Source: a virus
Virus record (IMG/VR): IMGVR_UViG_3300031758_000599
Coordinates: 1-22,942 of that record
DNA: 22,942 nucleotides
Direction: 5' to 3' (one strand)
Both the position numbers and the translations under genes were made by a program. This document shows, in pieces, positions 17-22,942 of this stretch (the first letter of the stretch is position 1; each line of letters opens with the position of its first letter). Under the pieces are notes generated by a model that did not search any database, was not told where the DNA came from, and saw nothing but the letters and a program-made list of their open reading frames with translations.

Positions 17-1348
17 TTACAGAGCGGTTGCGCGGGTCTCCAGGCGCAGGTAACGAACCTGACCGAGAGATGTCTGCGGAACCTTGTTCTCGACAAGACC
101 AGCAAGGCCAGTGGCCGAGGTCGTGCCGGAGTTTGCCACGGTGACCGTGAAGGTCGTGGACGACGGAACGGTGGCAACCGTGAGGGCGCCGACCGAGCTG
201 AAGTTCACAAGGGCGTCAACGTCCTGGAACTTGACCGTCTCACCAACGAACAAGCCGTGAGGGCCAGCCGTGGTGATTGTTGCCGTGGTCGTGCTACGAG
301 CAAACGTAGTCACAACCGCAGCCTTGTCTCGACCGCTGTACTCGCTGACAGCAGCCTCGCCCATGATCATAGCGCCGAAGCGGAGCTTATAACCAATGAG
401 TGCGCGCTGGCTGAGCGGGTCGGTGTGGTCGCCACCTGGGGCAACGAAGTACGTCTGCATCGTCTGTGAGTCACCGACGACGAATGCGTCAGGACCAAAG
501 AAGAGTGCGGAGTAAATCGTCTGGCCGTCCTGGGTCCACGTCTTCGCGCCGTTGGCAACGAGGAAGCGAACGCCAGAGTAGGCGCCGATCTCACCGTTCA
601 GCATATCGAGCGGCTGGGTGTACTTCGTGGCCTCGAGGAAGCCGTGTCCCGAAGTATCCGTCAGCAGGTCGTATTGCTGATTTGGGTGAATGATGCAGCG
701 ATAGAACCCATCCGGGAACGGAGGGATGTTTGCTGCCTTGAGGCGAGCGACGGCCTTCTTGACTTCAAGACCATTGAGCTTGTAGTCCTGGCGTGCAGCA
801 CCCTCAGCAATGTTGCTGACGGTTGCAGCGGCAAGACCAGCTCGGGTCGAGATGCTCGAGGAGGTCGACTGAGCCTGTGCGTAGTAAACGCGAGCCGTGC
901 CTGCGTTCATTACGTCTCGAACGATCTCGTCCATGGACTTGGCTGCAGCGAACGACACGCGCTCGGCAGCAATGCCGACCAGGTCGTGCGGTGAGTCAAG
1001 CTGAACGATGTCGCTCAGGCTCGTGTATGCACCGTACTGCTTAACCGAGAAGTATTCCGTCGTAACGGAAAGGTTCACGGTTGCGTCAGGCGTAATGCCT
1101 TCCTTCAGTTCGGTGAGGCTGTGTGAAATATCTGGGTAACGGACGTAGCGAATACGATCCGTGCCCTTGACGAACGTGCCCTGGACATAATTGCCTGGGA
1201 ACACGTGCACCATGCGATCTCGGAGCTCTGTCGCAATCTGCTGAGAGACAAGTTCTTGAACGAGCTTCTGGTAAGCGTTAGCTTCCGTCCCGTTAAACGT
1301 GCCAATCTGATTGAGAGCAGGACCCGAAAGTGACGTAATTGTCGCCAT
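17..1348 (-). CDS. Major capsid protein, N4-gp56 type
   Basis: This 443-aa protein probably forms the icosahedral shell. Its first ~340 residues match my memory of the N4-gp56 major capsid family: an early segment rich in 'vsqqIATELRDR', a Pro/Thr loop (GITPDATVNLSVTTEYFSVK), the 'KQYGAYTSLSDIVQLD' strand-helix, and 'SMDEIVRDVMNAGT', which ends the spine-helix region. Residues ~345-418 look like an extra small beta domain (AxITTAGPHGLFVGETVKF ... VPSSTTFTVTVANSG) of a type common in phage virion proteins. The last ~25 residues (GQVRYLRLETRATAL) probably return to the capsid fold. The ATG at 1348 is preceded by AAGGAG at good spacing. It follows the scaffold gene by 14 bases, the usual scaffold-capsid pair. 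Family assignment is from recalled sequence pattern, not a search. Confidence 0.8.
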   Translation of the reverse strand: MATITSLSGPALNQIGTFNGTEANAYQKLVQELVSQQIATELRDRMVHVFPGNYVQGTFVKGTDRIRYVRYPDISHSLTELKEGITPDATVNLSVTTEYFSVKQYGAYTSLSDIVQLDSPHDLVGIAAERVSFAAAKSMDEIVRDVMNAGTARVYYAQAQSTSSSISTRAGLAAATVSNIAEGAARQDYKLNGLEVKKAVARLKAANIPPFPDGFYRCIIHPNQQYDLLTDTSGHGFLEATKYTQPLDMLNGEIGAYSGVRFLVANGAKTWTQDGQTIYSALFFGPDAFVVGDSQTMQTYFVAPGGDHTDPLSQRALIGYKLRFGAMIMGEAAVSEYSGRDKAAVVTTFARSTTTATITTAGPHGLFVGETVKFQDVDALVNFSSVGALTVATVPSSTTFTVTVANSGTTSATGLAGLVENKVPQTSLGQVRYLRLETRATAL

Positions 1349-1362
1349 TTAAGGTCTCCTTA

Positions 1363-1911
1363 CTAACTTTCCAGCCACGGATTGCCCATAGCCTTGAGGG
1401 CTTCGACAATCTGGTCTGGCTTCATTTTGGTTTCCTTTTGGACTGAACGCTTCGGGCTGTTCGCATCCTTAGGAGCTTCGGTGGTTTCTCCACCAGTGTA
1501 CTGTTTCATCAGAGCTTCGAACTCCAATGCTCGCTGTTCCTCGTCAAGAGTCCTCGTCTTCTCGGAGAACTCAAAGTACTTCGGGTATTTGCTCCGAAGC
1601 TTCTCATTCTCCGCGACCTTGCGACTCTCCTCAAGCTGACGCTCGAGTTCCTGGGCACGGCGCTGCACTTTCTCGAACTCTGAAAGAGAGGCTTCCTCTT
1701 GGGCAGCCTTCCACTTTGCGAGCTCCTCGTACTTCGACTGGAACTCCTCGGCCTGCTTCTTTGCAGCCGTGAGTGCCTGGTCTTTTCCTGCAAGACGACG
1801 CTTCCAAGTGGCGATGTCTTCCTGCTGATCAGTGGCCTGAGTATCGGCAACCTGTGCCTCAACCTCTGGCGACTGTGTCTGCGGAACTTCCGCGACTTGC
1901 TGCTCTGCCAT
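1363..1911 (-). CDS. Capsid scaffolding protein (probable)
   Basis: A 182-aa, strongly charged protein (Glu, Gln, Lys, Ala) with almost no aromatic or hydrophobic core. Residues ~30-115 read as a long coiled coil (repeated KKQAEEF, QELERQLEES, VAENEKLRSK patterns). The N-terminal ~30 residues are acidic, Gln/Thr-rich and probably disordered. The C-terminus is a short basic and amphipathic segment (KPDQIVEALKAMGNPWLES), a layout typical of scaffolds that bind the capsid protein through their C-terminus. It lies directly before the major capsid gene, which is the strongest support. The ATG at 1911 has AAGGAG about 9 bases upstream. No protease domain is visible, so if the scaffold is removed by cleavage the protease must be elsewhere. 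Function is inferred from composition and position. Confidence 0.75.
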   Translation of the reverse strand: MAEQQVAEVPQTQSPEVEAQVADTQATDQQEDIATWKRRLAGKDQALTAAKKQAEEFQSKYEELAKWKAAQEEASLSEFEKVQRRAQELERQLEESRKVAENEKLRSKYPKYFEFSEKTRTLDEEQRALEFEALMKQYTGGETTEAPKDANSPKRSVQKETKMKPDQIVEALKAMGNPWLES

Positions 1912-1932: not shown

Positions 1933-1953
1933 TAAGCTGGCACTTCCAGCTTA
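1933..1953 (-). promoter_or_regulatory. Perfect RNA hairpin on the stop codon before the scaffold gene
   Basis: On the minus strand TAAGCTGG and CCAGCTTA form an 8-bp perfect stem with a 5-base loop (AAGTG). The first three bases are the TAA stop of the 1632-aa gene. The hairpin fills most of the only real intergenic gap and ends about 8 bases before the AAGGAG of the scaffold gene. No run of U follows, so it is not a classical intrinsic terminator. It may be an RNA stabiliser, a processing site or a weak attenuator separating low-copy giant proteins from high-copy scaffold and capsid. The stem is seen directly; its role is inferred. Confidence 0.5.
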
Positions 1954-4900
1954 TCTAAGCGTTGGGATATCCTGAGTGATGGACTCTTCTGGCCCACCAA
2001 TCATTCCTGTAATCTCCTGCAGTGACTTGACAATTGTCCTGCCTGCACCGATGACACCAGTGTCAACCAGTGGCTTACCAATCTCTGAGACCATTTGGTC
2101 TGCAGTGAGCTGGTCGTAGCCCTGGCGGGAGATCGTAGACATACCTCGGCGCATCCACCCTGGAAGGCCTACGGTAATATCCTCTGGCGTACCAGGGATA
2201 AGTTGCGTCAGGAAGAAGAGGTAGTCTGGCCTCTCCGTTCCCCTCTTCTCGAAGTCAGGGATGAACCCATTCTGCGAGAGGTAGTCAATGAACTTGCGGT
2301 AGGCTTGGAACCCTGCACCTGGGGCAAGGGCACCGAACGGCTTCCAGAACATGAAGCGGAAGGTCTCTGGGAGAACCTTTCCGAACATGTACGAAAGCGG
2401 GTACAGCCCTAGGAACTGGTGGTTCATGGTGCGCTCTAGGAAGTTACGGTCAGGGTTGAAGTAGTTGATCCTGTCCATTGCACGGGCAGTCTCTTGATAC
2501 CTGAACTTGGCTGCCTGAAATGCAAGCTCCTCTGTTGCGTGGTCGTTGAGCAGTGTGATCGCTGAGTCGTGCAGTGTCCTGCCGATTCGCTCTGCGCTCT
2601 GTGCAAGAAGACCATCGCCAGACATGACATTGTTGATGATCGCGTCAATCCTGGTAATCTTCTCCGCCTCTGTCAATCCACGGAACGACGTGGAGTTGGC
2701 GGCAATGCGGTCGAAGATCTCACCAGTAACTGCTCCAAGGCTGTTGAACTTTGCTCCGTACCTTCTGCCGTTGGCAAGCGCCTTTACGACCACGTCGAAC
2801 GCAGGACCGGTGGCGCTGCTAACGCCAACCTTCTCATACAGCCTGCGCAGGATGAGCTCGTTGGTCTTGGAGTTAAAGATCTGTGAGCCAAGACCGTAGA
2901 CAGACTCTTCCTTTACTGCGGCGATAGATGACCTGAGAGCCTTGTACTCCTTGAGAGTCTTGAAGTTCTCGGGCGACACTCCTCGTGCGGCTTGACGTAG
3001 CTTCAGTGCTGCAACCTCAACGTCGTCAACAAGGGCCGCAAGTCGTTGTACATCATACCCACCCTGACGTGCTTCGTCAACGACCTTGAGCTTCATGATC
3101 CTTGTGAGGTCTGATGGCTTGTGTGCGAGGAGGAATGAGATGGACTCGTTGTCGTCTAGGTATGAAGCAAACGCATCTACCTCCTGCCGCGATCGAGCAA
3201 GGGCAACCTCTGACGGACTTACTGCGAAGCCCCAGTTGGCTGGTCGTGCGTAGTCGAAAATGTCGTCTCCCCACCCTAGGTCTACTGCCCTTCGGTACCT
3301 GGAGAGCCACCCGGCAAACATGTCTAGTTCGTTAGTACCGAACTCGTCTGCAAGAGCTGCGTACTCTGCTGGCCTTGTCTTTGCCGTGTCCTTGGCCCAC
3401 CGCTGTGCGTACTCATACGCAGCCATGATGTCGCGCTGTGATTCCTTGTAGCTTGCGACTACCTCGACAGGGCTTGCATCGCCGCGCTTGCGCCTATAGA
3501 TGGACTTGACAACCCCAACAATGCTTTGCTCCTCAAGGCCAGGCTTGAGCGTTGTGGGCAAGCCTCCTCGTGATGCTACCGCCGTACCGAAGGATGCTTC
3601 GTGCATATTCTGTGCAATGGCAGAGTCTCGCTCGCCAAGCATGATGCGTACATCCTGTGGCTCAAGCCCCGCCTTGCGAAGAGCCGTGGTAACCTCGTCA
3701 GTCCTGATACCTCGTGCCTCCTTGAAGAACGGAGACTCAACAATTTCTTGCAGCCAGAAGAACGGGTTTGCTGCGTACTTTAGTGTCGGGTAGAAGTTCT
3801 CTGTCATCTGCGCGACAAACTTGTTCATGCCTACGCCTGGGATTCCGTTTGCCTTGACCTGTCCAGTAATCCACTGGGTCACGCCTGAGGTTCCGATCTC
3901 TCCAGCATACGCCTTCAGCAGTGCGTTGTCGATGTCGAGCTTCGGAAGTCCGGCAGATGTAGCTTCCTTAAGCCTTGACTCAAGTCCTCCGACCACGCCA
4001 CGGTCCTTGAGAACCGTGTCCATTGCGTTGTAGATGTCCGACTTGTTGCCGAATGCGTTGACGAGACCGCGTACTCCGATACGCTTGGAGGCCGCCTGCT
4101 CGTTGATTAGGCTGTCGAACTGGGTGATCTCGTCTGGGGTGAAGTATGCACCGAGCGATACGATCAGCCGCTGTCGGGCGGAAGATGTGATCTGGCTCTG
4201 CATCACTGGAGAGAACAGCTTCCTAAGGTTGCTGGTAAAGAACCCTCGGTTGTACTTGCCGTTGAAGTTAGGCATGCCGTCGACAAAGTCTGACGTGATG
4301 TCGACATACGGCTCAGCCTTGCTTACCGTGATTGTCTGTGCTGTTCCGTCTGCGTTCCTGACCGCCACCCTCGTTGGGATGCGCATCATGTTGTCGGCTG
4401 GTGCAATGCCAATCCTATATCCAGATCTCCTGGATGCAGCGATGATGTTGTCAATCTCTTCTGGCGATCCACCAATTGATGCCCAGAATGCCTTGAGCTG
4501 CTGCACTTCGGTTTGCTTTGCGACGGAGAATGTGGCCCCGCTCCTGGCAGCTTCTTCCAGCGTGGCAATGACCTGCTGTGGATCGACTGATCCCTTGGCC
4601 ATGGTCACCTGGTTCCTGAGGTCAGCGAACTGCCTGACCGCGTTGTTTGCAAGCGCACGCTTCCTAGCCATGACGGTCTTCCCGGCATCCTTGTATGTGA
4701 TTGCCACAAGCTTGTTTGCAATGTCCTCGGAGAATCCTACGGATACAAGGTCAGATGCATTAAGCTCTGCGTTATCGAGAAGGGCAAACCCCTTGAGGAA
4801 CCTATCCACCTCTGTGTCGAGTAGGCTGTCGTTCCTGAGCAGGGTCATCCTAGTGACGGATGCGTTCTTCATTTCGCCAAGCGTGTTGAGCTGCGCATCT

Positions 4901-6849
4901 GTGAGCGATCGACCAGTAAGCCTGGTGATCTCCTTGCGCACAGCAACCTTCTGCGCATCTGGCATTGTAGCAAACCCTGCGGTGATGAGCGACAGTCTTC
5001 GGATGTTTCCGACACGGTTGACTGCAAATCCGAATCGAACGTGGTTAGCCCATGCCATTCGCTGTGCCAGCTGGCGGCGGATGACTGGGTCAGACTTGAC
5101 GATGCCTTGCTCGTCAAAGAACTTGCCACCAACGATCCTCTGCTTGCCATTGACAATCGCCACCGTTCCGCCCTCTGTCCATGTGGAAACGAAGTCTCCA
5201 AACTGCTCGTCAGTTGCTCGAGGCAACTTGCCAGCGTTAGACAGGTTCTCGTTCTTGGCTCGAGCAAGGTCGTCAGCGAGAGCCCTTACTGGGTCCACAA
5301 GAAGCTCAGACACAAGGCCAGAGTCGCCCATGCCAACGAGAGATGCCTCTCGTGTGACAGTGCTCATCTGAAGGTCTGCCATGCCCCTGGCCAGCGCCTC
5401 TGAGTGTGAGGTTGCGAAGTCTACGCCCTCCCTCTGCCAGTCCCTTCCCCGTGCAAGGTCCTCCATTGCCGAGTTGGCAAGGCGTACATTCCTTCTTGCT
5501 GACCATACGTCAACCTCTCGGTCAGCGTTTAGGTAGCGTGTACCGCCTCGGAACTCTGCTCCCTTTGCGTCAAGGTATGCCGAGACTTCCGACTCCAGGT
5601 AGAACTCTGATACTCCGTACTTGGACGATACGCCCTGTCCGCCCCTAGTCTTGGAGATGAGGAACTGTGCAATCTCTTCTGAGTTGCCGTACCCGCCCTC
5701 TTCGATGATTTGCTTACGGGCTTCGTTGATGTCAGCGATGAACGTGTCAGTCTTGCCCTTGGCTACCTCGTCTACTCCGCCGACAACCTTGTCTCGGACG
5801 ACAGAGAATGCAGACTGCTGGAAGCCGATAGATGCACGCCTCTGGGCGATCCCGGATGTGTCTTCACCAAAGACTTTTGCGGATTCGTCGAGCACATCCC
5901 AGGCCCCGCTGCCATACGCTCGCTCTCCAACCTCGTATGCCTTGACAGCAAACGCTGCCTTGATGCCGTCAGAGATTCCGTTAATCTTACCGAACAGTCC
6001 CTTGTGGATGTTAGCGATGACAGCGTACTTAGCCAGGCTGCCAAGGTCTTTGCCTGCGGCCATGCGTGCCTGAGTAAGTCGGATCTTCCTGCCCAGGTCA
6101 AGACCGACCTGCAGCTTCGGAAGGTTCTGGGCGGCCTTTGTACCAGCCTTAAACCCAGCAGCTCCACCAGCGATGGCGCCTACGCCACCAGCAAGAGACC
6201 CAGCCGCAGCTCCTGCCCCGAACCCTGCAACCTTGGCAAGAGCTGGCGCTAGGGCCACCTTGCCTGCAATGAAAGGGGTGAAGTTGAGCGGGTCAAGAAG
6301 AATGGACGCACCGAGGTTGACCATCGCGTCGTTTGAGAATGACCGATTGGTCTCTCGCATGTACTCAAGGACTCGATCCTGGTCTGCCCCTCCGTCAATG
6401 AGGTTCTTGATGTCTGAGGGCAGGCTGTCTTTGTCCAAAGCGATGCGAGCACGGCCAGCCATGTCCGCAACGAACCGACCAGGCCCCCCGATCCAGTCGA
6501 GGAGCGTCTTGCCGACGTCTCCAACTGGCTGCCCAACAGTCTCACCGTATGCCTTGACTGGCCCGATCCCGTTGAGGAAGTCAGATACACCAGCCATAGC
6601 CCCGCCAACCGCAGATCCTACGGCACCGATGCCACGGAATGGCAGCGATGTGACAAAGCTAATCGGGTCTGGCGACCCTGCGATTGGGCCCTGGTCACGG
6701 GCTGGGCTGTAGTTTAGCTCGTTAGGAAGATCTCCAAGCCTACCAGTGTCAAGCTCGCCCTGCCCAAGGTTTACCCCGAATCGGATATCCCTAGACGTTA
6801 CGGGATCAGCTGGGTCTCCAGGCTGGATCGGCTGATACTTAAACGGCAT
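1951..6849 (-). CDS. Giant virion protein, probably internal/ejected (1632 aa)
   Basis: The largest gene of the window; I do not recognise a named family. The N-terminus (residues ~1-60) is Pro/Asp-rich. Residues ~70-92 and ~198-238 are Gly/Ala-rich hydrophobic stretches, and between them lies LLDPLNFTPFIAG (~184-196); a 'DP.N..P' motif beside a hydrophobic stretch is, from memory, common in large ejected virion proteins. The middle is long, helical and charged. Residues ~1458-1506 hold a Tyr/Phe-rich block (FLERTMNHQFLGLYPLSYMFGKVLPE), followed by a ~126-residue tail. I saw no protease, lysozyme, RNA-polymerase (no T7-type motif) or ADP-ribosyltransferase signature, but cannot exclude divergent ones. 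The ATG at 6849 overlaps the previous stop as TAATG with no good ribosome site, so translation is probably coupled. Position between portal and scaffold supports a virion role. Confidence 0.65.
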   Translation of the reverse strand: MPFKYQPIQPGDPADPVTSRDIRFGVNLGQGELDTGRLGDLPNELNYSPARDQGPIAGSPDPISFVTSLPFRGIGAVGSAVGGAMAGVSDFLNGIGPVKAYGETVGQPVGDVGKTLLDWIGGPGRFVADMAGRARIALDKDSLPSDIKNLIDGGADQDRVLEYMRETNRSFSNDAMVNLGASILLDPLNFTPFIAGKVALAPALAKVAGFGAGAAAGSLAGGVGAIAGGAAGFKAGTKAAQNLPKLQVGLDLGRKIRLTQARMAAGKDLGSLAKYAVIANIHKGLFGKINGISDGIKAAFAVKAYEVGERAYGSGAWDVLDESAKVFGEDTSGIAQRRASIGFQQSAFSVVRDKVVGGVDEVAKGKTDTFIADINEARKQIIEEGGYGNSEEIAQFLISKTRGGQGVSSKYGVSEFYLESEVSAYLDAKGAEFRGGTRYLNADREVDVWSARRNVRLANSAMEDLARGRDWQREGVDFATSHSEALARGMADLQMSTVTREASLVGMGDSGLVSELLVDPVRALADDLARAKNENLSNAGKLPRATDEQFGDFVSTWTEGGTVAIVNGKQRIVGGKFFDEQGIVKSDPVIRRQLAQRMAWANHVRFGFAVNRVGNIRRLSLITAGFATMPDAQKVAVRKEITRLTGRSLTDAQLNTLGEMKNASVTRMTLLRNDSLLDTEVDRFLKGFALLDNAELNASDLVSVGFSEDIANKLVAITYKDAGKTVMARKRALANNAVRQFADLRNQVTMAKGSVDPQQVIATLEEAARSGATFSVAKQTEVQQLKAFWASIGGSPEEIDNIIAASRRSGYRIGIAPADNMMRIPTRVAVRNADGTAQTITVSKAEPYVDITSDFVDGMPNFNGKYNRGFFTSNLRKLFSPVMQSQITSSARQRLIVSLGAYFTPDEITQFDSLINEQAASKRIGVRGLVNAFGNKSDIYNAMDTVLKDRGVVGGLESRLKEATSAGLPKLDIDNALLKAYAGEIGTSGVTQWITGQVKANGIPGVGMNKFVAQMTENFYPTLKYAANPFFWLQEIVESPFFKEARGIRTDEVTTALRKAGLEPQDVRIMLGERDSAIAQNMHEASFGTAVASRGGLPTTLKPGLEEQSIVGVVKSIYRRKRGDASPVEVVASYKESQRDIMAAYEYAQRWAKDTAKTRPAEYAALADEFGTNELDMFAGWLSRYRRAVDLGWGDDIFDYARPANWGFAVSPSEVALARSRQEVDAFASYLDDNESISFLLAHKPSDLTRIMKLKVVDEARQGGYDVQRLAALVDDVEVAALKLRQAARGVSPENFKTLKEYKALRSSIAAVKEESVYGLGSQIFNSKTNELILRRLYEKVGVSSATGPAFDVVVKALANGRRYGAKFNSLGAVTGEIFDRIAANSTSFRGLTEAEKITRIDAIINNVMSGDGLLAQSAERIGRTLHDSAITLLNDHATEELAFQAAKFRYQETARAMDRINYFNPDRNFLERTMNHQFLGLYPLSYMFGKVLPETFRFMFWKPFGALAPGAGFQAYRKFIDYLSQNGFIPDFEKRGTERPDYLFFLTQLIPGTPEDITVGLPGWMRRGMSTISRQGYDQLTADQMVSEIGKPLVDTGVIGAGRTIVKSLQEITGMIGGPEESITQDIPTLR

Positions 6850-9542
6850 TAGAGCTTAATAGGTGTATTCGTAAACCTACCTCCAGATGAACCTGCTGAC
6901 GGAAGCGATTGAATCTTTGGCGTAACCGACGGGATTGGCGTCGGAGGCGGCTCTACTGGTGGGGCGATAATTGGAACTGGCCCACCACCAGGTGCCCCAG
7001 TAAGTACTCCAGCCCCAGGCAGTGCGCCAGGAGTCTTTCGGAAGAAGTACGAACTTGGGTCTTGTGTTGGAAGTGTGTAGCTTCCTCCAGTCTGGTTTAG
7101 AACGTAGGGACTTACGTACGTCGGAGGAGGTGGTGCGGTTGGAGTAGGAGCAGGAACATTGCCTGCACCGCCTACGTAAGACGATCCTACCGCCTGAATC
7201 TCTGTTGTCCCTGTGTTGTACACTACTGGCTCAACTGGGGCAAGTGCACTGATGATTGCAGATCGGATCTTTCCGGTCTTGTCCACAATGTTATTATCCG
7301 TAATGTACTTGTCGACTGCTTCGTCAACAATCTTGTCCCTATCTTGCGGCGGGATATTCATGCCAAGCTTGTTGTTGATGTCGTTTACATATCCTCCGAC
7401 CAGGTCTACCGCTGCTCCCTGGAGACCAGCTGCGCCTGGCTTGGTGATGAACTTGCTATTGTACCACGTCTGGCCCTTGTCTGCTGCGGTAACCTCAAGC
7501 CAAAGCTTGAAGGTTGAGGAGTTGCTGGCATTCAGCAACTCCTTTGCAAATCCGCTTCCGATTCGAAGCGTACCGTCTTGTGGGTTAACCTGTGGCGTAA
7601 GGAAGTCCTGGCCAGTAGATGCTGCGTACGTGGAGAAGTCCTCGAGGTCTTCTCTGGTAAGGCGCATCGTGGTTCCGTTCTGCGTAAACTCTACGTAGTC
7701 GTTCTGGTCCATCTGTCCATTTGAAAGGTCCCCACCACCAGGTACTGCGACGTAGAAGATACCTGCGTCTGCAACATTGTTCTGGTCTGAGTACTTCAGC
7801 TGAACCCTTTCGATGTAAATGATTTCATTCTTGTTGCCTGAGGAGCTACCGATAGAGTAGTCCCCTCGGGTAGCGTCAGAAACTGCGGTTGCCACGTAAG
7901 TGTACTGACCAGTGCCAGTTCGTCGATATGTCCAGACAAGGTTTGGGTCCTTGTCCACCATGTCAACCATCTTAGACTCAAGGGCTAGCCGTGCTACGAT
8001 TCCAATACTCATCTCGTTTCCAGGGGCTGTGCTGACAGACAGCGTGTTAGTGTCCAGGCCCATCCTGGTCATAGCCTGTCCAACTGCAATGAGCGTCTTA
8101 TCGTTCTGATTCCATGCATTCTGGTTACCCATCAGGTCGATCATTGCCTTGAGAACGTCTTGATCTTCCATGCCAGTTTCTGATGAGATCTGCTTTACTA
8201 CGCCGTCGATGCTGGAATCGTTTGCTCCAGGAAGAAGATAGGAAAGATCTCCGCTACCAATTTGATAGACTGTATCTGCAATGGCAATATCGTCGTACTT
8301 TGCAGATGACGATACCTTACCCGATTCCAAAACAAACTTTCCAAACGCTTCTCTCGTTGCATACGGGTCCGACGACAGTGGCGTGTTGACGACTCCTCCT
8401 GTCGCACCGATAGCCTTGGACAAAGCGGTGCTGGCATTGCGTGTTGTAGCGTTGTATGATCCAGCCGTTACTCCTTCGCCAAAGTATGTCGCAATCCTAG
8501 CTGCCGCCCCAAGTTCTTTTCCATACCCAGCCTCAGTGAGTCTGACAACCTCGTTAGAGTAATCATCCACTTTTAGCATGAGCGTCTCTACGTCTGCCTG
8601 GGTCATGCCTGCGGAAAGTGCTGCGTTCGTAACAACTTCTGCAAGTTTGCCTGGGGTAGAAGCGTTAAGCACATCAGTAAGATTTGAAATAAAACTTTCG
8701 CCGTCGTCTGTGATCTTAGATTTTAGAAGGTTGATAGTATTCTTTGAGGTGAACATCCTCTCGAGCACTGGAGAAATAAACTTCTGAAGCGCTACGGCGA
8801 ATGCCTTCTTCTCGTCCTTGATCTTGTTGGCAACCAGGTCGTACCTGGCCTGGGCTGCGTCAGCCTTCTTGGCTGCAACTGCACGAGACCTGGCGTCAAG
8901 GATGGCCTGGTATCGGGCGCTGTCTTGTGGTACGCCGACTGATTCTGCGCGTGCAAGCTCCTTGTCGTAGAAGTTGACCAGCTTGTCCGCATTGATCTTC
9001 TTCTCGTTGTACTGTCGGACTGTGTCAGCAGCTGCGTACTCGTATGAGGCACCGAAGATCGATCGGTTGATTCGGCTGATGTCTGCCTCAGTCATTCCAG
9101 GCTGCTGCGCAATAAGCCCAAGGACCTGTTCGTACTCGGATACGGAGATAGTACCAACGCCAGTACCGCCGAAGAGGGACTTGTCGATCGTTGTTCCTGC
9201 GGTGTAGGCGTTGTTCAACACGGTCTCTTGGTCACGAAGCGACTGGAGGCGGAAGTCTTCTGCCTTCTGTACGAGGGCATTGTAGCCCACGTTGTCACCC
9301 TGGCTTTGCGCCAAGTCTGCCTGCCGGAGGTACCACTGGTACACGCTGGTAGCGGTCGCTGCGTTAGTAGCACCTCCGCTCGTGAATGTATTGCGCGCAG
9401 TACCGCCCTGCATGTTGTTCGTGTATGAACGAAGCATGGTGTCTTCCTGCGAGTTGCGCTCCTCCTTGAGGAGTGCGTAGATCAGGGCGCTAAGGTTCTG
9501 CGAGCCCTGCGTTGGACGCCCGAACCTACCTTGTCGTGCCAT
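6849..9542 (-). CDS. Large virion protein with proline-rich tail (897 aa), function unknown
   Basis: No family is recognised. Residues ~1-330 are Ala/Gln/Lys-rich and look mostly helical, with coiled-coil-like stretches (for example around AARSRAVAAKKADAAQARYD). Residues ~330-560 are mixed alpha/beta. Residues ~560-700 contain beta-like, Gly/Asn/Thr-rich strands. From ~772 onward the chain is low-complexity and Pro-rich (APTPTAPPPPTYVSPY, IIAPPVEPPPTPIPSVTP), ending SSGGRFTNTPIKL. There is no signal peptide or clear membrane segment. It sits directly after the portal gene and before the 1632-aa protein, each joined by TAATG, so the three are probably made in linked amounts. GGAGGTGA precedes the ATG at 9542. 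A connector-associated, internal or tail-hub role is plausible but is inferred only from position. Confidence 0.65.
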   Translation of the reverse strand: MARQGRFGRPTQGSQNLSALIYALLKEERNSQEDTMLRSYTNNMQGGTARNTFTSGGATNAATATSVYQWYLRQADLAQSQGDNVGYNALVQKAEDFRLQSLRDQETVLNNAYTAGTTIDKSLFGGTGVGTISVSEYEQVLGLIAQQPGMTEADISRINRSIFGASYEYAAADTVRQYNEKKINADKLVNFYDKELARAESVGVPQDSARYQAILDARSRAVAAKKADAAQARYDLVANKIKDEKKAFAVALQKFISPVLERMFTSKNTINLLKSKITDDGESFISNLTDVLNASTPGKLAEVVTNAALSAGMTQADVETLMLKVDDYSNEVVRLTEAGYGKELGAAARIATYFGEGVTAGSYNATTRNASTALSKAIGATGGVVNTPLSSDPYATREAFGKFVLESGKVSSSAKYDDIAIADTVYQIGSGDLSYLLPGANDSSIDGVVKQISSETGMEDQDVLKAMIDLMGNQNAWNQNDKTLIAVGQAMTRMGLDTNTLSVSTAPGNEMSIGIVARLALESKMVDMVDKDPNLVWTYRRTGTGQYTYVATAVSDATRGDYSIGSSSGNKNEIIYIERVQLKYSDQNNVADAGIFYVAVPGGGDLSNGQMDQNDYVEFTQNGTTMRLTREDLEDFSTYAASTGQDFLTPQVNPQDGTLRIGSGFAKELLNASNSSTFKLWLEVTAADKGQTWYNSKFITKPGAAGLQGAAVDLVGGYVNDINNKLGMNIPPQDRDKIVDEAVDKYITDNNIVDKTGKIRSAIISALAPVEPVVYNTGTTEIQAVGSSYVGGAGNVPAPTPTAPPPPTYVSPYVLNQTGGSYTLPTQDPSSYFFRKTPGALPGAGVLTGAPGGGPVPIIAPPVEPPPTPIPSVTPKIQSLPSAGSSGGRFTNTPIKL

Positions 9543-14766: not shown

Positions 14767-15336
14767 CTACTTCTTTACGATGATGCACCGACTTGACGGA
14801 GCATCGCCCTTACTGGAGGCAATTGCCTTCAGCTCTTGTCCCGTCACCGTGACGGCAAACTTTTCCTTGCCCTTGCCGCTGAACGTCGGATCAGCGAACT
14901 GGAACCCGTGGTCTTCACACCACGCAGCTGCTACCATGTGCCCGTAGGTGGCACCCTTGTGCCTACCGACGAACCGCTTGTGCCAGGCGCTGATCGCCTG
15001 GGGCGGGTAGTTCTTTGCTGCGTCGACGTTGATGATCAGTGCCGCCCCCTTCTTGAGGCTGGCCACGCAGTCGGCCCAATCCTGCGCGTATTTCGCGTTG
15101 GCGCCAAGTACCTTGCAGGTCTTTACTAGATCCCATAGACTCGATCCATTGTCGCTAACGCCTTCCTTTTCCTTGAATCCTGTGGCCTTCTCCTTGGCAT
15201 TGATGCCTTCTGCTGCGGTAATCTCCTTGCCAAGAACCCAGGACACAGCACAGGCTGCGCTTGAAGGCCCACAGTCATCGAGGATGCCGCCCTTCTCGAC
15301 GTGGTCGAGCTGGCTTCTAATGATCAGTTTGCTCAC
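14767..15336 (-). CDS. Endolysin, C39-like cysteine peptidase
   Basis: A 189-aa protein probably cutting peptide cross-bridges in peptidoglycan. The papain-like C39 pattern is visible: catalytic Cys in DDCGPSSAACAVSWVLG (C22), His in YGHMVAAAWCEDHG (H133), and Asp in FQFADPTF (D149). The length fits a single catalytic domain with no separate cell-wall-binding domain. I choose GTG at 15336 as the start rather than the more distant GTG at 15411: GGAG lies 7 bases upstream, it overlaps the previous stop as GTGA, and the longer version would overlap the neighbouring membrane gene by 79 bases. Being flanked by two small membrane-protein genes confirms a lysis role. It has no signal peptide, so it depends on the holin. 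An alternative is a virion-associated C39 peptidase, less likely in this setting. Confidence 0.75.
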   Translation of the reverse strand: MSKLIIRSQLDHVEKGGILDDCGPSSAACAVSWVLGKEITAAEGINAKEKATGFKEKEGVSDNGSSLWDLVKTCKVLGANAKYAQDWADCVASLKKGAALIINVDAAKNYPPQAISAWHKRFVGRHKGATYGHMVAAAWCEDHGFQFADPTFSGKGKEKFAVTVTGQELKAIASSKGDAPSSRCIIVKK

Positions 15337-15524
15337 TTGTTTGCTCCATTCGTTGCGAACCATGCTGCCAGGGACGATAGACCAGTGAGCCCAAGAAGCC
15401 CGACAATCCACTTGGCTAGGCGGTAGGCCCCTCGGGTCTCTGCCATCTCCATTCGGATAGTGCCAAGCTCTACCTCGATCTTGTCGAGTCGCTCGATGAT
15501 CTGATCTACCTGGCTACGTGTCAT
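15333..15524 (-). CDS. XhlA-like small membrane protein (second holin or holin partner)
   Basis: A 63-aa protein with an amphipathic, charged coiled-coil N-terminus (residues ~4-36, VDQIIERLDKIEVELGTIR) followed by one hydrophobic helix (~38-57, AKWIVGLLGLTGLSSLAAWF) and a short tail. This architecture (cytoplasmic coiled coil plus a C-terminal transmembrane helix) is that of the XhlA/haemolysin family, which works with a holin and an amidase or lysin in lysis of Gram-positive hosts. It overlaps the previous gene as ATGA and its stop overlaps the endolysin start as GTGA. It could be a holin, an antiholin, or a lysis regulator; the sequence alone does not decide. Confidence 0.7.
   Translation of the reverse strand: MTRSQVDQIIERLDKIEVELGTIRMEMAETRGAYRLAKWIVGLLGLTGLSSLAAWFATNGANK
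15344..15347 (-). promoter_or_regulatory. Ribosome binding site that fixes the endolysin start
   Basis: GGAG on the minus strand, seven bases before GTG at 15336. It supports the GTG start over the upstream GTG at 15411 and over the ATG at 15363. Confidence 0.6.

Positions 15525-16939: not shown

Positions 16940-16950
<11 letters not shown>
15982..16950 (-). CDS. Probable distal tail fibre or receptor-binding protein (322 aa)
   Basis: No family recognised. The protein is rich in Gly, Ser, Thr and Asn with many short beta-like strands (for example [54 protein letters not shown]), few Lys, and no coiled coil or membrane segment, as in fibre tips and beta-sandwich receptor-binding domains. It lies between the collagen-like fibre gene and the chaperone-like gene. 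I choose the ATG at 16950, overlapping the fibre stop by 11 bases with a GAGG upstream; an in-frame TTG at 17001 has AAAGGGG but would overlap the fibre gene by 62 bases. Bases 16321-16440 have 39 G+C of 120 by hand count, against 36 of 60 at 9781-9840, suggesting transfer or fast diversification. A run of eight T at 16407-16414 (A8 in the coding strand) lies inside it. Confidence 0.65.
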
Positions 16951-19413
<2,463 letters not shown>

Positions 19414-19417
<4 letters not shown>

Positions 19418-20020: not shown

Positions 20021-20188
20021 TTACTTTCCTTTCTTTGCTCCACGGAGACTCTTGCCCTTTGCGGCTGCCTCCTGGAACTTCTTCTTTCCGTATTTCTTTC
20101 GTCCGATTGAAGCTGCCAAAGCTTTCGGGTCCCGAACACCCTGCTTCTTGAGCTTCTCCGTAAGCTTCTTAAACCCTACGTATGCCAT
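20021..20188 (-). CDS. Very small basic protein (55 aa), function unknown
   Basis: A 55-aa reading frame, starting ATG at 20188 and ending TAA at 20021-20023, below the size at which most gene callers report. It reads MAYVGFKKLTEKLKKQG ... and ends KGKSLRGAKKGK, with strong Lys content and a likely amphipathic N-terminal helix. Support: TAATG overlap with the previous stop, GAGGG upstream, and a 1-base gap to the next gene. From memory, short proteins beginning 'MAYVGFKKL.EKLKKQGV.DPKALAA.IGRKKYGKKKF' occur in other phages, with unknown role. It may bind nucleic acid or be packaged. Confidence 0.75.
   Translation of the reverse strand: MAYVGFKKLTEKLKKQGVRDPKALAASIGRKKYGKKKFQEAAAKGKSLRGAKKGK
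20025..20030 (-). promoter_or_regulatory. Ribosome binding site that fixes the 82-aa gene start
   Basis: AGGAAA on the minus strand, with AGGA seven bases before ATG 20019 and overlapping the end of the preceding 55-aa gene. It decides for the short form. Confidence 0.55.
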
Positions 20189-22942
20189 TATGGTACCCTC
20201 ACGTTAATATCCGGTGTGTTGATTGACGGCGATGTCTGCCTTCGGATAGACCAGTTGTCACCCTGCCCGAACAGAGCTTTCCACAACTCGTCTGCTACGA
20301 ATCCACCAGCCACCGAACCGCCAAGGCTGCCGATTCCACCAGTTGCGACGGCTCCAAGAGCACCGCCGCCGATTGAACCGAGCAGATTGAACACAGTCCT
20401 ACCAATATCTCCGCCTGTAGCTGCGGTAGCACCAAGGCTTGCCACAGCTCCAATTGCCGTGGCCTTGAGCGGAGACTTAGTAAGCAGGTTGGTGGCGTTC
20501 AGTGCCCCTGTAAACAGTGCGTTTTGTGGGTTTAGGTTGCCAGAAAGCCCCAATGTGGCAAAGTCGATGGCTGCACCCGCGACTGATCCCCCAACTGGGG
20601 TGCGGACTCCCATATCAAACGAGCGCAAGCCAGGACTCATCTTCGGAAGCAGGCGATCCGGAGTCAAAAGCCCCATCAACTTGCCCTGCTTGACCGAATA
20701 ATTTATTTCTGCGTCACCCTGTGAGGTCTCTGGGGTCGGATCTGTTAGGTCTGGGCCCTCCCAGAAGCCAGAATCAAAGTCATCGTAGCTGTAATCTGCG
20801 GATTCACCGCTAGTTGATCGTGGTCGACCAGTTGCAGATACCGATGGAGCTTGAACTTCTCCTTGTGAACCCATGCGGACGGCAATTTCTGACTTATCAC
20901 GCAGTGGTTCGGTGTCAAACGCAGGGATTTCACCGCGCCTAATCGCCTCAATGGCGATTTGCACCTGCCTAGACATCGGTCCGCCCTCAAGCGTTGGGAT
21001 AACAGTGATAGATTTCTTGCCTTTAGTGGTCTTCTTCACGCTGACGTTGAAGATATCTGCAAGGATTTCATATAGAGGGACGGCAATCTTCCTGTCCCCG
21101 TCAAGAACTCCAGCCTGCATGTTCTCTAGGATCGGCAGAACGAGCTCTGCGTTAACAAGTTTGCCCTTCTTACGGGTCACAGTGATGACTTCCTGCTTGC
21201 CAGTTGTGGTATTCTTTGATACTACACCAAGAGCAGGCTTGCCTTCGACCTCAAGATCAGTCGCAAGTGCTCGTTCAACGTAGTTGTCTGGCAGGTTTGC
21301 CCCAATTGCCTTGACCAGCTCTACGGATTTTGCGTAGTTCCTGCCAACCGTAATGTCGGAGAAGTTCTTCCAGAATACACGGAAGAACCCATCCAGCGCT
21401 CGCTTTGAGTCAATCTTAACGTCAAGACCCTCTAGCGCGTTGCGAATGGCTGTCTCAGCGCTGTCCGAACCCTTGTTCTGAAGTGCGATGGCGATCACTG
21501 TGGCCACGCGCTTAGGGCTGGTGCCAGTTCGGATCGGCTTCTCTGCGTCCATCTCCTCTACTGCGCCGCCCTCATCGCCCTCGTCCCACACGCTATATCC
21601 GTACTCTTCTGGGGATGTGATCTCCATCCCGTCAGCTGCATCGTAGACAGTTCCCTTGCTCGTGCTCTTGCGCTTTCTCATCTCTTCTTCGGTGTAGTCC
21701 TGGAACTTCTCTGGAGACTTCTCGTCGTACACACGTACGTATCCAGGCTCAACAGGAACCACGCGCTTGTGAACATCCTGCGCTGCGCTTGCAATCTCTC
21801 GGTACTGTTCTTGAAGCTGGTCTGCCTTGATCTTTGCAGGGTCGAGATCTGCTGAATCGAATCCGCGCTTCTTTACGATCTCTGCAATCCTGCGATCAAG
21901 TTCTTCTACGGTGATGGTCTTCTGTAGTCTTTCAACAACTGGCTCTCGGCTCTCTACGGTACTTACCGTAACGTCGCGTAGTCCTGGCATTGGGATCTGC
22001 TGTACAATTGGGGCAGAGGAAAGGGTGACCTTCCCGTCTCCTCCAATTGTCCACATCTTCTCAATCTTTCCAATGGCCTTCACCATCTCTACGGTAAGAG
22101 CCTGCTGGCTCCTCGGGTCAATGTCTTCTCTGCCGATTCTAGTTCCAGACGGCATGTCTGGCGTCTTGTTCAGCGTCCAGCCAAACTCAGGGTCCCAGAA
22201 GAACGTGCGACCGCCCTCTGCCTTCGTCGTGTCCGCTCGTGTCTCTGTGCCAATCGTAATACCAATGTCCCTGAGGGCAGCGAAGAACTTGTCGGACTTC
22301 GAGCTCAGCGCTCCAGATGACCGCATCCCGGCAAGCGTGCCGCCAGAAATAACGGTCTGGGCAACTGGAGCAGCGACGCTGTCTAGGAGTCTTGTGAGTG
22401 GGTAGTATCGTTCGTCTACGCTTGATCGCCCTGGAACAACGACCTCTGGGAATCGATCTCGGTGGAACTGAGGGTCAAGGTCGATAGTCCACTCTCTTCC
22501 AAGAAGCCCACGTGCGACCTCTACCGCTGCTCTGGAGGCAAGGATTGCTGCTCGGTCTGTTCCCCTAATAACTTCTATTGCCTTACCTGCCCTGTCGCCA
22601 GTCACAACCGCACGTGCGCTGAGCACTGCTTCAGACTGTACCGTGTCACCAGCGAAGATTCCGTTTTCATCTAGTGTGGATGGGCTTGAGACCTCTGCGG
22701 CTGAGTCGTAGACGCTTCGGTCTGCAAGCATCCAGAAGTTATCACGAGGAATTTGTCGTCGCCCTTCTTCGGTCTCGTATGTGGCTGGGTCTTGTGCAAT
22801 CCCGCCATAACCAATCTGCGTGCCAGCAATAGTGGACATCTTCTGAAGTAGTCGTAGGCCCCTTACGATTGAGTTCAGGTTGTCAGAGTAGGTACGTACA
22901 TCAGTGTCTGGCGAGTATCCAAAGACTTCTGGGTCATGAAGA
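20188..22942 (-). CDS. Large virion/ejection protein, partial (5' end outside window)
   Basis: The frame ending at 20188 stays open to the window edge: upstream of the ATG at 22839, 34 further codons read protein-like sequence (HDPEVFGYSPDTDVRTYSDN ...) with no stop, and that ATG has no convincing ribosome site, so the true start is beyond 22942. About 917 residues are visible. The middle is charged and helical (for example VEELDRRIAEIVKKRGFDSA), with an acidic patch (DEGDEGGAVEEMDAEK). The last ~200 residues hold Gly/Ala-rich hydrophobic segments (GGSVAGAAIDFATLGL; LGSIGGGALGAVATGG) that could insert into a membrane. I recognise no enzyme motif. Position before the fibre module and the hydrophobic C-terminus suggest a virion or ejection protein; this is inference. 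Confidence 0.6.
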   Translation of the reverse strand, partial: LHDPEVFGYSPDTDVRTYSDNLNSIVRGLRLLQKMSTIAGTQIGYGGIAQDPATYETEEGRRQIPRDNFWMLADRSVYDSAAEVSSPSTLDENGIFAGDTVQSEAVLSARAVVTGDRAGKAIEVIRGTDRAAILASRAAVEVARGLLGREWTIDLDPQFHRDRFPEVVVPGRSSVDERYYPLTRLLDSVAAPVAQTVISGGTLAGMRSSGALSSKSDKFFAALRDIGITIGTETRADTTKAEGGRTFFWDPEFGWTLNKTPDMPSGTRIGREDIDPRSQQALTVEMVKAIGKIEKMWTIGGDGKVTLSSAPIVQQIPMPGLRDVTVSTVESREPVVERLQKTITVEELDRRIAEIVKKRGFDSADLDPAKIKADQLQEQYREIASAAQDVHKRVVPVEPGYVRVYDEKSPEKFQDYTEEEMRKRKSTSKGTVYDAADGMEITSPEEYGYSVWDEGDEGGAVEEMDAEKPIRTGTSPKRVATVIAIALQNKGSDSAETAIRNALEGLDVKIDSKRALDGFFRVFWKNFSDITVGRNYAKSVELVKAIGANLPDNYVERALATDLEVEGKPALGVVSKNTTTGKQEVITVTRKKGKLVNAELVLPILENMQAGVLDGDRKIAVPLYEILADIFNVSVKKTTKGKKSITVIPTLEGGPMSRQVQIAIEAIRRGEIPAFDTEPLRDKSEIAVRMGSQGEVQAPSVSATGRPRSTSGESADYSYDDFDSGFWEGPDLTDPTPETSQGDAEINYSVKQGKLMGLLTPDRLLPKMSPGLRSFDMGVRTPVGGSVAGAAIDFATLGLSGNLNPQNALFTGALNATNLLTKSPLKATAIGAVASLGATAATGGDIGRTVFNLLGSIGGGALGAVATGGIGSLGGSVAGGFVADELWKALFGQGDNWSIRRQTSPSINTPDINVRVP

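Follow-up and report, generated by a model that had tools for sequence, protein, structure and literature searches.

Two giant cysteine-depleted proteins encoded between portal and scaffold as candidate ejection proteins of an uncultured phage lineage

Gene layout and relatives of C6 and C7

What do the two large genes lying between the portal and scaffold genes of an uncultured phage encode? We analyzed a linear 22,942-base IMG/VR record (IMGVR_UViG_3300031758_000599; hereafter, the window), which is a fragment and whose genes were called on the minus strand. The gene order on this strand was a 917-aa 5'-open ORF, a fibre gene, several small genes, TerL, portal, C6, C7, scaffold, and the major capsid protein (MCP). 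The main features of the window were as follows:

17..1348, minus strand: MCP, 443 aa (phrog_1357, 9e-41)
1363..1911, minus strand: putative scaffold, 182 aa (assignment based only on its size, its position, and the scarcity of Cys)
1951..6849, minus strand: C7, putative ejection/internal virion protein, 1632 aa
6849..9542, minus strand: C6, putative ejection/internal virion protein, 897 aa
9542..11494, minus strand: portal, 650 aa, with a 1-nt overlap with C6 (phrog_332, 3.6e-10; phrog_156, 4e-9)
16940-19417, minus strand: tail fibre with collagen-like repeats, 825 aa (Pfam Collagen, 8.5e-18)

The preliminary description had placed genes for 897-aa and 1632-aa proteins, joined by TAATG, between portal and scaffold/capsid. 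Both ORFs were found there on the minus strand, and TAATG was present at both the portal stop/C6 start and the C6 stop/C7 start. The window portal showed 26% identity to a Gordonia phage portal (E 3e-5), and the identity of TerL was also supported by the family search of window proteins. The 182-aa scaffold had no family match in PHROGs or Pfam.

Portal relatives were collected from 83 matched IMG/VR stretches, 80 of which were kept. For C7, the best 80 of 140 IMG/VR matches were kept, corresponding to 78 loci that overlapped in part with the portal set. Genes of the relatives were called with a simple ORF picker, with occasional calling errors. The order C6 then C7 was repeated in about 100 IMG/VR contigs, and wherever a contig reached far enough, a C6-like ORF and next a C7-like ORF nearly always came after the portal. 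The full order TerL-portal-C6-C7-scaffold-MCP-C10-C11-C12 recurred in contigs of sufficient length, with an extra gene, C22, 3' of MCP in one clade. The 1-nt overlap was kept at 71 of 86 portal-C6 junctions and 62 of 84 C6-C7 junctions. Where measurable, dN/dS was 0.04-0.18 for both C6 and C7; most pairs were close to saturation in dS. The recurrent gene order, low dN/dS, and kept overlaps indicate that C6 and C7 are not chance ORFs. In the relatives, C6 ranged from about 790 to 1020 aa and C7 from 1189 to >3600 aa. The C7 proteins of three distant lineages (L164, L170, and L162) were 2955 to >3605 aa, without a recognisable added domain; L164 and L170 also had a very large C12 of about 1490 aa.

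Other proteins of the window were also characterized. A 214-aa protein at 14767-15411 showed weak likeness to Peptidase_C39_2 (E 0.0035, below cut-off) and is a candidate lysis or cell-wall enzyme. Portals of the window's clade have 650 aa, and those of other clades have about 750-770 aa and an N-terminal extension. The window MCP, at 443 aa, is longer than the MCPs of other clades (about 323 aa). Its additional C-terminal part matched an endosialidase beta-barrel domain weakly (E 5e-5, below cut-off) and is perhaps a fused decoration domain. The 917-aa 5'-open ORF (20188-22941, minus strand) belongs to a cysteine-free family with members of 2400-2556 aa in relatives G001 and G002; none was seen in G003-G006. 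This family showed DUF7831 and DprA-like matches in the relatives and may represent a further packaged, injected polyvalent protein.

Cysteine depletion and divergence

We compared the Cys content of C6 and C7 with that of other proteins from the same contigs. C6 contained no Cys in 39,520 residues (43 non-redundant proteins), and C7 contained 5 in 68,684 residues (42 non-redundant proteins). Cys content was 0.28% in portal, 0.32% in MCP, 0.33% in C12, 1.02% in TerL, 0.12% in fibre, and 0.04% in scaffold. About 110 (C6) and 190 (C7) Cys would be expected at the portal rate, a figure that is not a formal probability because the proteins are related. As a yardstick, proteins of T7, P22, phiKMV, P-SSP7, epsilon15, and N4 were sorted into ejection and other proteins by record annotation and general knowledge. 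The known ejection/internal proteins (n=17) contained 5 Cys in 14,756 residues (0.03%), and other structural or packaging proteins of the same six phages (n=34) contained 109 in 17,544 (0.62%). Two tape measure proteins checked, with Mycobacterium phage Sabertooth (JX307703) serving as a control, contained 0 Cys in 866 residues and 1 in 2075 residues (partial). Since these two tape measures and the scaffolds are also Cys-poor, the signature is one of proteins that are threaded or lie inside, and not of ejection proteins alone. Cys may have been lost because such proteins traverse a narrow portal and then an oxidising periplasm. In a limited literature search, we found no paper stating a Cys signature of ejection proteins. 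As a simple test, the signature could help to pick out further internal or ejected proteins that are still hidden in viral dark matter.

C6 and C7 also diverged faster than their neighbors. Distant relatives shared 60-64% identity with the window in portal, 23-29% in C6, and 26-33% in C7. Among 35 representatives, mean identity was 66% for portal, 71% for MCP, 53% for scaffold, 27% for C7, and 22% for C6. This matches the published contrast of fast-diverging T7/P22 ejection proteins with portal, for which Swanson et al. gave identities of 34% for gp15-like proteins versus 69% for portal (PMC8954989). In the same 35 representatives, C6 and C7 distances were correlated (r 0.98; partial r given portal 0.92), whereas partial correlations given portal were about 0 to 0.14 for C6-MCP, C7-MCP, and C6-scaffold; co-divergence figures of this kind can be raised by clade structure and by saturation.

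Sequence features, predicted structures, and known proteins

Conserved parts of C7 were the N-terminal region, a core at residues 800-1200, and a C-terminal signature. The following features were located in C7:

2335..2433, minus strand: C-terminal signature, residues 1473-1505, the best conserved part
2530..3222, minus strand: variable insertion hotspot, about residues 1210-1440
6088..6267, minus strand: Gly/Ala-rich hydrophobic stretch, residues 195-254, a possible membrane-active segment
6274..6294, minus strand: DPLNFTP motif, residues 186-192

The C-terminal family consensus was RxxxERSxNHPFLGxYPLSYMxGKVIPE, and NHPFLGxYPLSYM was found in all or nearly all C7 relatives. The DPLNFTP motif noted in the preliminary description is present, and its D186 and P187 were invariant in 42 of 42 aligned C7 relatives. 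The Gly/Ala hydrophobic stretches described there held in part: the enrichment is real (G/A at 32 of 60 residues in 195-254, equalled in 0 of 1000 shuffles), but no 19-mer of the window C7 reached the transmembrane-like Kyte-Doolittle mean of 1.5. Several C7 relatives showed hydrophobic peaks near this stretch. Taken alone, the Gly/Ala stretches and DPLNFTP are weak arguments for ejection. C6 carried a conserved basic N-terminal signature, MARxGRFGRxxxGxQNL.

The preliminary description had proposed profile-profile searches and structure prediction of both proteins; profile searches and structure models, the latter for C7 of a relative, returned no known family or fold. The AlphaFold model of C6 (pLDDT 80, pTM 0.55) consisted of helices at residues 17-531, a beta-rich patch at 535-630, helices to 767, and a disordered Pro-rich tail at 774-897. 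Foldseek gave no match to this model in the PDB at E<=0.001 and one significant match in BFVD, A0A6J5RZ15, an unnamed protein of an uncultured phage (E 2.3e-9, TM only 0.25). The C7 fold was taken from a compact relative of 1189 aa (L074), the model of which was almost all helix; at its modest confidence (pLDDT 68, pTM 0.67), Foldseek found no match in the PDB at E<=0.001. PHROGs and Pfam searches of window proteins and of members of the first alignments gave no convincing family for either protein. Matches were likewise absent from tblastn against 50,697 phage records, from a pattern-based scan of GTDB genome contigs for C7, and from PDB profile searches with C6 and C7, and no cultured relative of either protein was found. 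A DUF6861 match in C7 (E 7.5e-4) was dismissed as below cut-off and an endolysin match as weak (E 0.095); no peptidoglycan hydrolase domain was found. By these searches, C6 and C7 are two protein families without detectable known relatives.

The T7/phiKMV/P-SSP7-type internal core proteins (gp15, gp16) are, like C6 and C7, two large, helix-rich, cysteine-free late proteins that diverge much faster than portal; T7 gp16 is largely alpha-helical (PMC8954989), and phiKMV gp36/gp37 (898/1337 aa) form a similar size pair to C6/C7 (897/1632 aa). However, hhalign gave E 0.82 for C6 against the gp15 set and E 0.56 for C7 against the gp16 set (each reference alignment comprising 3 sequences), and no gp14-like third (pore) protein of ~200 aa was recognised in the block. 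T7-type gp15/gp16 genes lie downstream of tail tube and nozzle genes, whereas C6 and C7 lie between portal and scaffold, a position upstream of scaffold unlike that of the ejection genes of T7, P22, phiKMV, and epsilon15. P22 gp7, gp20, and gp16 are cysteine-free late gene products like C6 and C7, but they are three much smaller proteins encoded after tail genes and show no sequence match. P22 ejection proteins are thought to be recruited by the scaffold (PMC8402733).

Another comparable protein was an unnamed gp9-type protein of Beephvirinae, which is 1635-1648 aa (1635-1646 aa in FlowerPower and Manuel), cysteine-free, and encoded between portal and scaffold/MCP like C7; it has a DPL motif at a similar position, and the MCPs are related. 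In these phages, portal and gp9 are separated by several small genes, and no C6 counterpart was found. Despite position and size, there was no support for a shared origin of C7 with the gp9 of Beephvirinae (at most 1% probability in hhalign) or with Pascal gp19. The N4-type virion RNA polymerase is also giant, cysteine-free by our count, and ejected (PMC12633501). In the C7s checked, simple patterns for polymerase motifs B and C were not found, none being complete, and there was no family match; this candidate was rejected.

Homology to a non-virion enzyme, which the preliminary description had named as evidence against its reading, was absent from C6 and C7 of the window, neither of which had a Pfam domain above cut-off; enzyme domains were found in some C7 relatives only. 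The C7s of L027 and L071 carried a GNAT-like domain, sub-threshold in Pfam, which aligned to window C7 residues 1362-1414, inside the variable slot. A 2904-aa C7 relative (L146:5195-13909) carried an ADP-ribosyltransferase exoenzyme domain above cut-off (Pfam 1.5e-6). This recalls T4 Alt, an earlier example of an ADP-ribosyltransferase that is packaged and injected. GNATs occur often among the polyvalent proteins predicted to be injected (PMC5512222). The domains in the C7 relatives fit the idea of an ejected effector like T4 Alt.

These domains raise the alternative that C6 and/or C7 are head-packaged polyvalent effectors (T4 Alt/DarB-like) that disarm or reprogram the host instead of building a DNA conduit; for portal-terminase phages, packaging of polyvalent proteins has been predicted (PMC5512222). 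However, polyvalent proteins carry several catalytic or LPD domains per chain, whereas C6 and C7 of the window and most relatives have no enzyme domain and some C7 relatives have one. The conserved parts of C6 and C7 are non-enzymatic and present in all lineages, and both proteins occur in essentially every long-enough contig, whereas effectors are typically patchy. We therefore consider this alternative unlikely.

Tail context and proposed role

The preliminary description recognised no tape measure, tail tube, or connector in this block; because the window is a 22.9-kb fragment, the lack of a recognised tail protein is partly an effect of the record end. In relatives, the genes that come next past the left end of the window are C10, C11 (Dit-like), and C12 (hub-like). 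C11 matched Dit (best PHROG_33, 2.6e-18) and PDB 2x8k (2.5e-5), which we take to be SPP1 Dit, gp19.1. C12 matched a tail protein weakly and is presumably hub-like, judging from general knowledge, its position after the Dit-like gene, and its N-terminal pattern. Only C10, plus C22 in some relatives, lay between MCP and C11. Tail tube, tail terminator, chaperone pair, stopper, and tape measure were not recognised in relatives of 36-46 kb, a result limited by search sensitivity and by their unproven completeness. The MCP family matched MCPs of Streptomyces Beephvirinae and Bacillus Pagevirus (FlowerPower, 2e-32; Pascal, 7e-32). Abafar, a member of Beephvirinae, has podoviral morphology with a very short tail (PMC11536984). 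The Dit- and hub-like genes without a tail tube or tape measure, together with MCP kin that include a podovirus, suggest that the lineage is likely to have a short tail.

This context bears on a second alternative, in which the phage has a long tail that escaped recognition and C7 is its tape measure protein. C7 is large, helix-rich, and cysteine-free with Gly/Ala stretches, features common to tape measure proteins, and Dit-like and hub-like genes are present; however, the sparse gene content between MCP and C11, the lack of recognised tail genes in the 36-46-kb relatives, the location of C7 upstream of scaffold, and the podoviral MCP kin make this very unlikely. We regard it as equally improbable that C6 and C7 serve to assemble the portal vertex or core, working in the procapsid like a scaffold without being delivered into the cell: their location, the Cys-poor scaffold-like genes, and the invariant basic C6 signature, which could bind DNA, portal, or scaffold, would fit, but their size, the enzyme-domain insertions in relatives, and their fast divergence, unlike portal, argue against it.

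We infer that C6 and C7 are present in the virion and ejected, and they are probably the ejection (internal or pilot) proteins of an uncultured short-tailed phage lineage. The suggestion that the block is a distinct ejection apparatus is backed by Cys depletion, the rate pattern, co-divergence, helical models, and the short-tail context, and the enzyme domains of some C7 relatives point the same way. The word distinct finds support in the searches, which returned no similarity in sequence, profile, or fold to known ejection proteins. These several independent ejection-like marks, together with failed homology, suggest a system that is ejectosome-like in function but cannot be assigned to a known ejection family.

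In the proposed mechanism, translation of C6 and C7 would be coupled to that of portal. Both proteins would join the procapsid along with the scaffold, at the portal vertex or close to it, and stay in the head with the DNA. They would precede the DNA through the portal channel in a partly unfolded state and then fold again in the envelope, forming a conduit for the genome. C7 may play the part of the large, gp16-like component, contributing membrane-active Gly/Ala segments and a conserved C-terminal part, and C6 that of its gp15-like helical partner. Like virion location and ejection, the membrane insertion, conduit, and stoichiometry of C6 and C7 are what we infer.

We tentatively raise a more specific possibility, that of a two-protein ejectosome unrelated to the T7, P22, or N4 types. 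The uncultured lineage, a widespread one, would have as its short tail a siphophage tip in reduced form (Dit-like and hub-like), seated directly on the head. The giant component of the ejectosome might carry an interchangeable effector-enzyme slot (GNAT, ADP-ribosyltransferase), so that one protein would open the way for DNA and deliver an enzyme. If true, two new protein families would join the small set of phage genome-delivery machines, ejection genes could adjoin portal and scaffold, and siphophage tail-tip proteins would be tied to a short-tailed way of life.

A gut phage with a related MCP (MT835607; L171:13404-21461) encodes a 2685-aa protein with a single cysteine downstream of the capsid, which is another candidate internal protein.
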